43,112 nt of DNA, taken from assembly GCA_000992695.1 (NCBI GenBank), contig LBUS01000015.1, positions 1-43,112 of the forward strand. Direction: 5' to 3'. The notes under the pieces were generated by a model. The model did no database searches and was not told the origin of the DNA. It saw nothing but the letters and a program-made list of their open reading frames with translations. The position numbers and the translations under genes were made by a program. The stretch comes from Candidatus Peregrinibacteria bacterium GW2011_GWF2_38_29. GTDB taxonomy: Bacteria; Patescibacteriota; Gracilibacteria; UBA1369; UBA12463. This document shows, piece after piece, positions 36,463 through 38,314 of the stretch; within the stretch, counting starts at the first letter, position 1, and every line of letters starts with the position of its first letter.

Positions 36463-38052
36463 ATGAACCCAAAGAAGTACGCTTTAATCAGCGTTTACGA
36501 CAAAACAGGAGTAGCGGAACTGGCCAAAGCGCTAGTAAAAGCCGGATATGAAATCCTTTCAACCGGAGGTACAAGCAAATACCTAAAAGATAGCGGCATT
36601 GCCGTAATCGACATTTCGGAATATACGGGGTTTCCCGAGGTTATGGATGGTCGTGTGAAAACCTTGAATCCAAAAATTTATAGTGGAATTTTGGCTGTGC
36701 GTGATGATAAAAAGCACATGGAAGAGTTAGATGAGCGCGGACTCGGCTTGATTGATTATGTTATTTGCAATCTTTATCCGTTTGAAGAAACGCTTGAAAA
36801 AGACGGCGTCACCGAGGATGAATTAATTGAAAAAATTGATATTGGAGGCGTGACTTTGATCCGTGCAAGTGCGAAAAATTATAAATTCGTTACGATCATC
36901 ACTTATCCGGAAGATTATAAAACCGTAACGGAAGAACTTGAAAAATCCGGAGAAACAAGCCTTGAAACGCGAAAAAGATTGGCGAAAAAAGCATTCAATC
37001 GCACTTATCAATATGATGAAAAAATTGCGCATTGGTTTCGCGAAACTTTGGGCGAACCTGAGCTTATGGATCTGCATTACGAAAAAGTCGCATCACTTCG
37101 ATATGGCGAAAATCCTCATCAGAAAGCCGCATTTTTCAGAAATCCTTTGAATAATGATTCGAACGTAACGAACGCAAAAGTGATTCAAGGAAAGCAAATG
37201 TCTTTTAACAATTATGTTGATGCGGATTCCGCACTTGAACTTGTTAAAGAATTTGAAAGGCCAACGACTGCGATAATTAAACATAATAATCCTTGCGGAG
37301 TCGCGAGTGCCGATACGATTTTTGAAGCTTTTGATTTTGCATTTAACGTTGATCCGTTGTCCGCTTTTGGCGGCGTAATCGCATTAAATCGAAATTGCAC
37401 AAAAGAAATCGCGCAGTATATTGCAGATAAAAAAATATTTCTTGAAATCATAATTTGTCCAAAATTTGAAAAAGACGCACTCGAAATACTAAGCAAAAAA
37501 CCAAATGTAAGGCTTCTTGAAACCGGTCCGTTAAAATTAGATTTGCTCAGACGCGACATAAAAAAAGTTGCCGGAGGCGTTTTGATTCAAACAAAAGACA
37601 CATATCAATTAAGTGAAAAAGATTTGAAAACCGTGACGAAATCCGCGCCTACACAAGAGCAAATTCGCGCTATGATCTTCGCTACAAAAGTTGTAAAACA
37701 TGTTGTTTCAAACGCTGTTGTTTTTGCAAAATGCGTGCCAAGCAATTCAGAATCTGGTGATGTTGTTGAAATGACGACAAGCATTGGAAGCGGTCAAATG
37801 TCACGTGTTGATTCGGTTGTTATTGCCGCACACAAAGCCAAAAACAGACATGATGAAAATTTCATAAAAGGATCCGTGATGTCATCCGACGCATTTTTTC
37901 CATTTCCGGATGCGGCTATTGAATCCATAAAAGCCGGCGCAGTCGCTTTAATCCAACCGGGCGGAAGCATCAAAGATGAAGAAGTTATTAAAGCGGTTGA
38001 TGAAATGAATGTGCCAATGGTTTTTACGGGGAAAAGGTTTTTTAGGCATTAA
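36463..38052 (+). CDS. purH: Bifunctional AICAR transformylase / IMP cyclohydrolase
   Basis: The last two steps of IMP synthesis (529 aa). The N-terminal MGS-like IMP cyclohydrolase domain shows A-L-I-S-V-Y-D-K-T-G, L-S-T-G-G-T-S-K-Y-L and D-G-R-V-K-T-L-(N/H)-P-K-I. The C-terminal AICAR transformylase domain has the catalytic K273-H274 in I-K-H-N-N-P-C-G, then D-P-L-S-A-F-G-G-V-I-A-L-N and the terminal F-T-G-(K/M)-R-F-F-R-H. Both active sites look intact. It uses 10-formyl-tetrahydrofolate, whereas the PurP homologues further right would use formate and ATP for the same formyl transfer, so this step may have two enzyme types. It is followed directly by a hairpin. Confidence 0.97.
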   Translation: MNPKKYALISVYDKTGVAELAKALVKAGYEILSTGGTSKYLKDSGIAVIDISEYTGFPEVMDGRVKTLNPKIYSGILAVRDDKKHMEELDERGLGLIDYVICNLYPFEETLEKDGVTEDELIEKIDIGGVTLIRASAKNYKFVTIITYPEDYKTVTEELEKSGETSLETRKRLAKKAFNRTYQYDEKIAHWFRETLGEPELMDLHYEKVASLRYGENPHQKAAFFRNPLNNDSNVTNAKVIQGKQMSFNNYVDADSALELVKEFERPTTAIIKHNNPCGVASADTIFEAFDFAFNVDPLSAFGGVIALNRNCTKEIAQYIADKKIFLEIIICPKFEKDALEILSKKPNVRLLETGPLKLDLLRRDIKKVAGGVLIQTKDTYQLSEKDLKTVTKSAPTQEQIRAMIFATKVVKHVVSNAVVFAKCVPSNSESGDVVEMTTSIGSGQMSRVDSVVIAAHKAKNRHDENFIKGSVMSSDAFFPFPDAAIESIKAGAVALIQPGGSIKDEEVIKAVDEMNVPMVFTGKRFFRH

Positions 38053-38083
38053 AAAATCCCCACCAAGACTGATGAGGATTTTT
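38052..38083 (+). terminator. Rho-independent terminator of purH
   Basis: AAAAATCC and GGATTTTT pair (8 bp) around CCACCAAGACTGATGA and sit right after the purH stop codon. Confidence 0.75.
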
Positions 38084-38084
38084 C

Positions 38085-38112
38085 GGTACGACTTACCTAG
38101 GGACCTGACATT
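38085..38112 (+). repeat. Partial copy of the tRNA-like element
   Basis: GGTACGACTTAC then CTAGGGAC-C-TGACATT, closely matching 38232-38262 of the tRNA-like element over its D arm and the first half of its anticodon-like arm. It has no acceptor stem or T arm. It also contains GGACCTG (38101-38107), which could pair with the acceptor 3' strand at 38287-38293. Confidence 0.55.
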
Positions 38113-38210
38113 GTTCTAATTATAACATCTTTTTTAGCATATTTAAAGTCGTTTATATATTTTTAATAATTATTTTATAGGGAGTTCATATCCTTATGAT
38201 TAAATACGTC

Positions 38211-38222
38211 CATGCCGGCATG
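38211..38222. repeat. 12-bp palindrome CATGCCGGCATG
   Basis: Self-complementary stretch immediately before the tRNA-like element; it could be a processing signal, a hairpin or a binding site. Confidence 0.4.
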
Positions 38223-38225
38223 AAT

Positions 38226-38297
38226 GGGCCTGGTAATGGCTTACATCTAGGGACTTGACATTCCTGGATGCGGGTTCGATTCCCGTCGGGTCCACCA
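38226..38297 (+). tRNA. Unusual tRNA-like element with encoded CCA and G3-U70 pair
   Basis: A 72-nt cloverleaf: acceptor GGGCCTG (38226-38232) with CGGGTCC (38287-38293), discriminator A and CCA (38295-38297). A short D-like arm has GTAA/TTAC with TGGC loop. A 7-bp arm CTAGGGA/TTCCTGG has loop CTTGACA (38254-38260), and a standard T arm GCGGG/CCCGT has TTCGATT loop. G3-U70 with A73 is the alanine identity signal shared by tRNA-Ala and tmRNA. The formal anticodon would be UGA, but there is no long variable arm as serine tRNAs need, base 37 would be C, and U8 and a normal D loop are missing. It may be a tmRNA-like domain without the message part, a degenerate tRNA, or a tRNA-like small RNA. Sequence features TGGCTT near the 5' side resemble tmRNA 5' ends. 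Confidence 0.55.
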
Positions 38298-38314
38298 AGT
38301 GCCGGCTTCAAAAT

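Follow-up and report, generated by a model that had tools for sequence, protein, structure and literature searches.

A multicopy family of tRNA-like RNAs with alanine identity and putative antisense partners in Candidatus Peregrinibacteria

Introduction

AlaRS reads the G3:U70 pair and not the anticodon. Alanine identity is found in tRNA-Ala, where G3:U70 and A73 accompany the T arm and CCA, and also in the tRNA-like domain of tmRNA (RF00023, SsrA), together with a reduced D arm, a T arm and CCA. Other small tRNA-like RNAs with a short D arm are mascRNA and MEN beta RNA (RF01684), animal nuclear RNAs that are cut from long transcripts. Among loci controlled by antisense RNA, hok/Sok and bsrG/SR4 (type I) and SdsR/RyeA (type VIII) have a private antisense RNA with its own promoter, a U-turn target loop and multiple paralogous loci, and U-turns of the form 5'-YUNR speed sense/antisense pairing in hok/Sok and others (PMC6562991). 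An RNA toxin aimed at tRNA supply is the idea behind CreTA (PMC8501985), where the small RNA CreT, which contains a minute ORF, sequesters rare tRNAs, and CreA acts as a crRNA-like guide.

Here we describe a tRNA-like element (TLE) and its putative antisense partner in a stretch of 43,112 nucleotides (contig LBUS01000015.1 of Candidatus Peregrinibacteria bacterium GW2011_GWF2_38_29), which as a whole is called the window below. The TLE shares the above features with tmRNA but lacks pseudoknots, a tag and an mRNA-like domain; where tmRNA has P2 it has a hairpin with a loop, and there is a putative antisense partner. It differs from tRNA-Ala by a D arm of 3-4 bp, the absence of the position-8 linker, a 9-bp anticodon-like arm, a position 37 that is mostly a pyrimidine and a U-turn loop complementary to a dedicated RNA. 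TLEs are stand-alone bacterial genes, and their likeness to mascRNA is one of shape only. Unlike in the type I and type VIII loci, the target is a tRNA mimic with no encoded peptide, and the complementarity of the two genes, which do not overlap, is kept by selection. Neither CreT nor CreA, in contrast, is a tRNA mimic with antisense pairing.

Results

Anatomy of the tRNA-like element

An initial annotation of the window had proposed a tRNA-like RNA at 38226-38297 on the plus strand with a canonical acceptor stem, T arm and encoded CCA. Re-reading of the sequence bore this out, as it did the reduced D arm (4 bp with a TGGC loop) and the missing base 8, i.e. the absence of the position-8 linker. 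The anticodon arm, which had been described as a 7-bp stem, had to be corrected to 9 bp (ATCTAGGGA/TTCCTGGAT; 10 bp when C-G is counted) with a 7-nt loop. The parts of the element are:

38214..38220, plus strand: outer helix P0, 5' strand GCCGGCA, enclosing the TLE
38226..38297, plus strand: TLE, 72 nt
38226-38232/38287-38293, plus strand: acceptor stem GGGCCTG/CGGGTCC with G3:U70, 7 bp
38233-38244, plus strand: D arm GTAA-TGGC-TTAC, 4 bp
38245-38269, plus strand: anticodon-like hairpin, 9 bp, loop CUUGACA (7 nt; DNA CTTGACA)
38270-38286, plus strand: T arm GCGGG-TTCGATT-CCCGT
38294, plus strand: A73
38295-38297, plus strand: encoded CCA
38300..38306, plus strand: outer helix P0, 3' strand TGCCGGC, enclosing the TLE

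None of 200 shuffles folded as well as the TLE with its outer helix (z -3.7). Together with the multicopy covarying family described below, this places the element far beyond chance.

The TLE among known RNAs

ARAGORN reported no tRNA or tmRNA gene in the window and an Rfam search of the TLE returned no family at its gathering score, in line with the view that this is not a standard tRNA. The best same-clan Rfam model was tmRNA (RF00023), which scored 32.3 bits across the ends (cut-off 47) in an alignment with about 300 model positions deleted and 19 nt where the model has about 320. The other of the two best sub-threshold matches was RF01684 (mascRNA / MEN beta RNA; 33.3 bits, cut-off 42.5), and RF00005 (tRNA) gave 24.6 bits, below 29. 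The TLE has alanine-type tRNA-like ends, as in tmRNA. It lacks a full cloverleaf with a normal D arm, an alanine anticodon NGC (the formal anticodon is UGA, as annotated) and an mRNA-like domain with tag ORF and pseudoknots. A genuine one-piece tmRNA is encoded elsewhere in the genome (C6:35380-35787, 150.4 bits); with this full tmRNA present and a permuted model scoring 12.1 bits (E 4), a split or permuted tmRNA was rejected.

Two tRNA-Ala-like genes, L232 and L249, have canonical D arms, the loops AUUGUCA and GUAGUCA, respectively, and C at position 37. RNA segments complementary to the loop are found near both (partner p 0.015 for L249 and 0.085 for L232). Because these genes carry a full tRNA-Ala body and the same loop type, they bridge tRNA-Ala and the TLE and point to tRNA-Ala as its ancestor; they look like possible intermediates. 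The special kinship with tmRNA that had been suggested was not supported, and the TLE is best read as a descendant of tRNA-Ala that has become a compact tRNA mimic.

A multicopy, covarying family

Searches of the genome with tmRNA and tRNA models returned the tmRNA, about 44 normal tRNAs and several odd elements of 66-72 nt; normal tRNA-Ala genes for UGC, CGC and GGC are all present. The odd elements have in common the acceptor logic, a mini D arm, a long hairpin and a conserved upstream block, and they are enclosed by outer helix P0 (for example GACCGGCA...TGCCGGTC). Seeds were padded with N for alignment, because MAFFT alone misaligned the acceptor and the D arm. A covariance model built from four copies recovered the held-out fifth, and the refined model detected at least six TLEs in the genome, on contigs C15 (the window), C7, C1 (twice), C12 and C14. 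A seventh TLE-like copy on C3 (L045:1001-1114; G000:C3:9138-9251, minus strand; 37.6 bits) has an insertion of about 45 nt in the hairpin arm and is possibly interrupted or decayed. Another odd tRNA-like match (L046:1001-1103; G000:C7:52613-52715) lies directly after tRNA-Asn, scores 23.6 bits to RF00005 and was missed by ARAGORN.

Loss of stem covariation in relatives, which had been named as the mark of a decayed tRNA, did not occur. Across 17 curated members 93% of cells pair and 27 of the 31 pairs changed on both sides, with a covariation score of 0.862 against 0.245 for shuffled sequences and at most 0.19 with the pairing slid. Every stem is supported by covariation, including P0, in which 7/7 pairs changed on both sides; the only invariant pairs among the 17 are G1-C72, G2-C71, G3:U70 (17/17) and one T-stem pair. 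A decayed tRNA was rejected on the grounds of stem covariation and multicopy conservation.

The alanine identity claimed for the window element extends to the family. A73 is present in 69/69 collected TLEs, and so is G3:U70, over 36 different position 4-7 acceptor strands and with models whose G3:U70-containing seeds could favour this pair. Since tRNA-Glu, -Lys and -Ile without G3:U70 scored 40-47 bits with the TLE models, a TLE without the pair would have been detected. The D arm has 3-4 bp, with GG in the D region of all 69 members. The hairpin loop fits the U-turn-type pattern N-Y-Y-R-N-B-A in 68/69 TLEs compared with 20% of shuffled hairpins, with U33 in 57/68 and R35 in 68/68 loops. At position 37, 68/68 loops have C, G or U and never A, which the motif itself excludes there, and the triplet at the anticodon place, formally UGA in the window element, is not conserved. 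With normal tRNA-Ala genes in the genome, these features make the non-decoding role raised by the annotation likely.

Encoded CCA is absent from a few TLEs (L136, L151). In these two (L136:1501-1589 and L151:1501-1592) there is hardly a gap between the acceptor stem and the outer helix stacked on it, and their maturation would need RNase Z and CCA addition.

The first model matched 59/59 relatives searched, canonical tRNAs being among the matches, and there are several TLEs per relative genome. With the refined model at E <= 1e-12, 29/380 genomes of the phylum and 36/241 of the class pass, some of these passes being canonical tRNAs, which reach about 47-54 bits when their flanks pair by chance. 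Confirmed TLEs with partners come from the organism's order, from a further family of its class (L199, L256, L261, L262, L265, L269 and L270; apart from L199, each has the smallest p that the test can give) and from other phylum classes (L191, L193, L197 and L209). The 22 genomes searched outside Peregrinibacteria gave two weak matches only (40-45 bits).

At the loci examined, the protein genes adjoining TLEs differ from locus to locus and are unrelated housekeeping or unknown genes. PurH of the window shares 97% identity with its counterpart in Candidatus Peregrinibacteria GW2011_GWC2_39_14. The TLE on the purH side differs between the window genome and this relative (L214), and a near-identical flank is found elsewhere (L128, G001); TLE modules may be exchanged or moved between loci.

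A putative antisense partner

The hairpin region of the TLE recurs about 150 nt upstream in the window (38085-38112), and a similar part-copy is found at nearly every TLE. Read on the opposite strand, the part-copy consists of a -10 box, about 6 nt, 20-30 nt of complement to the TLE loop, hairpin 5' strand and D arm, and then an intrinsic terminator, giving a predicted RNA of about 60 nt. In the window we assigned:

38051..38112, minus strand: candidate antisense small RNA, about 62 nt, complementary to TLE nt about 5-36
38053..38084, minus strand: its intrinsic terminator (hairpin plus U run), deduced from the fold and not listed by the consensus scan
38085..38112, minus strand: segment pairing with the TLE D arm, hairpin 5' strand and loop (plus strand GGTACGACTTACCTAGGGACCTGACATT)
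38119..38147, minus strand: its putative promoter, TTTAAA - 17 nt - TATAAT with extended -10 TG

The duplex of the 38085-38112 segment with the window TLE was calculated at -41.6 kcal/mol. A partner segment within about 200 nt was found at p <= 0.02 for 54/69 TLEs and for 2/51 canonical tRNAs. The other 15 TLEs have no significant partner within 280 nt; some of their partners are probably weak or further off. A -10 with at least 5/6 matches to TATAAT precedes 46 of the 54 partners (about 14% of random places) and 49 have a terminator (11% in the comparison). The layout varies: the partner lies upstream on the opposite strand in the window's own genome, and convergent pairs with a shared terminator or tandem downstream partners also occur.

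Pairing is specific, cognate duplexes having a mean of -37.3 kcal/mol against -17.9 for non-cognate ones and the cognate ranking first in 26/28 cases. Related modules retain it through double compensatory changes across both genes: these affect 6/29 pairs between the window module and L214, and 4/22 pairs between L042 and L215, with zero single changes in the latter comparison. Because the two genes do not overlap, this complementarity must be kept by selection. The TLE has next to it a predicted antisense RNA with specific pairing, as an RNA-RNA toxin-antitoxin locus (type VIII or type I-like) would. An attachment-site duplicate was rejected because the part-copy systematically lacks the D-stem 3' strand, lies on varying sides and strands and comes with promoter and terminator signals. 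A guide RNA or T-box was also rejected, as the partner contains little besides complement and terminator.

The TLE promoter and its probable regulator

Two elements lie between the antisense promoter and the TLE:

38151..38194, plus strand: four 11-bp direct repeats GTTTATATATT TTTAATAATTA TTTTATAGGGA GTTCATATCCT upstream of the TLE, a putative PhoB/OmpR-type activator box
38195..38200, plus strand: likely -10 of the TLE promoter, TATGAT, abutting the repeats

Direct repeats of 11 bp before a -10 are the arrangement of a PhoB/OmpR-type promoter, and PhoB binds two such repeats (PMC2648988). Self-identity in the 75 nt upstream of TLEs (31 regions) gave z = 10.4 at lag 11 and z = 6.2 at lag 22, values that are somewhat inflated because 5/31 regions are close paralogues; no lag-11 or lag-22 signal was seen upstream of canonical tRNAs. 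The genome encodes one Trans_reg_C protein, and the TLE promoter is probably bound by this single OmpR-type regulator. PhoU was not found in the genome, and for the PhoB-like box we therefore claim only "OmpR-type" and no phosphate regulon.

The regulator gene (L211:1486-2214; G000:C4, minus strand) encodes the sole OmpR/PhoB-type DNA-binding protein of the genome. It is an orphan with no obvious phospho-acceptor aspartate motif, and its neighbours are a gene with a sigma-region-like N-terminus and glycyl-tRNA synthetase (GlyRS).

Discussion

The first interpretation of the locus stands as to a non-standard, non-decayed RNA with alanine identity that is likely non-decoding, and finds no support as to tmRNA kinship. 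What it lacked were the other copies of the element, the helix around it, its promoter with 11-bp repeats and, on the minus strand at 38051-38112, the putative antisense RNA. On balance we favour, with some reserve, an alanine-chargeable and probably non-decoding tRNA mimic that an OmpR-type regulator would induce and an antisense RNA of its own would silence, possibly in a toxin-antitoxin-like manner with RNA as the only component.

The sequence itself shows the anatomy of both RNAs, their covariation, their private complementarity and the promoter and terminator signals; expression, charging, silencing and toxicity are proposed as follows. The TLE keeps what AlaRS and tRNA maturation use (G3:U70, A73, the 12-bp acceptor/T-arm stack and TTCGATT), plus CCA or a CCA-addition site and the GG of the D-loop for the elbow, with the anticodon arm turned into a 9-bp hairpin with a U-turn loop. 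AlaRS ignores the anticodon, and the anticodon arm of a tRNA-Ala would therefore be free to become an antisense target. The TLE would be transcribed from the 11-bp-repeat promoter, probably under the single OmpR-type regulator, and the antisense RNA of about 60 nt from a promoter of its own that looks constitutive. The single-stranded 5' end of this RNA is complementary to the TLE loop, and its remainder to the hairpin 5' strand and D arm, so that kissing at the U-turn loop could extend to a duplex of 25-30 bp that opens D arm and hairpin and destroys the tRNA fold, leaving the TLE uncharged or degraded. When the regulator outruns the antisense RNA, free TLE would be alanylated and affect translation, for instance by engaging AlaRS/EF-Tu or filling the A site. 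The module resembles either a switch or a toxin-antitoxin pair made of RNA, with translation as the process acted on, and our leading guess is the latter, in which the free charged TLE would interfere with translation. It counts against this reading that toxin-antitoxin loci do not usually comprise several private pairs answering to one regulator.

The main rival to the toxin-antitoxin-like reading is a sponge, in which the small RNA would pair with mRNAs through its 5' seed and the stable, tRNA-shaped TLE would titrate it upon OmpR-type activation, alanine identity then serving stability or processing. A free 5' seed followed by a terminator is indeed a common trans-acting design, the TLE is the regulated partner by virtue of its 11-bp repeats, and tRNA-derived sponges exist. 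Yet for a sponge there would be no need to keep G3:U70, A73, the GG of the D-loop and the T loop invariant, and each small RNA, having its own sequence, would need its own targets; we hold this account to be unlikely, while giving it more weight than any other alternative. In another reading the TLE is a mistranslating tRNA that, on entering the ribosome, would put alanine at variable codons, the antisense RNA being there to guard against this. In its favour, the anticodon is ignored by AlaRS, the 9 bp roughly replace the stacked D and anticodon stems, and U33 is present in 57/68 and R35 in 68/68 loops. However, a position 37 without A in 68/68 loops and an unconserved triplet argue against decoding and make this quite improbable.

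Invariant alanine identity, a non-decoding loop and normal tRNA-Ala genes in the genome would also fit an alanyl donor for a non-ribosomal reaction (cell-wall bridge, lipid or peptide aminoacylation) whose supply is tuned by the antisense RNA. No transferase adjoins the loci examined, where the neighbours are unrelated housekeeping or unknown genes, and such a donor would not need six privately controlled copies, so that we give it very little weight. That the copies have no function at all, as decayed tRNA genes, attachment-site remnants or a repeat element, might be thought from their dispersal at unrelated loci and from the nearby part-duplicates, which resemble att or duplication scars; the strong covariation inside the TLE and between the two genes, and the promoter and terminator signals, leave this barely credible.

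A literature search for tRNA-like RNAs in Peregrinibacteria or Patescibacteria, or for tRNA-like RNA combined with antisense and toxin-antitoxin, found no description; as most subscription journals lay outside the search, this is not proof of novelty, and the TLE/antisense two-RNA module of Patescibacteria seems undescribed. We tentatively put forward, as a proposal somewhat less likely than not, a new RNA-only module of Patescibacteria: alanine-charged tRNA mimics acting on translation, each with its own antisense silencer and released through one OmpR-type regulator, as a multicopy toxin-antitoxin or dormancy system in ultrasmall bacteria. Patescibacteria are among the largest and least understood groups of bacteria, and such a module would give them a new class of functional RNA. 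It would be an example of a tRNA body that evolved to be controlled by antisense RNA, and would explain why the anticodon arm of the TLE, unread by AlaRS, could change freely. It also gives a concrete, testable handle on the regulation of translation in Patescibacteria.
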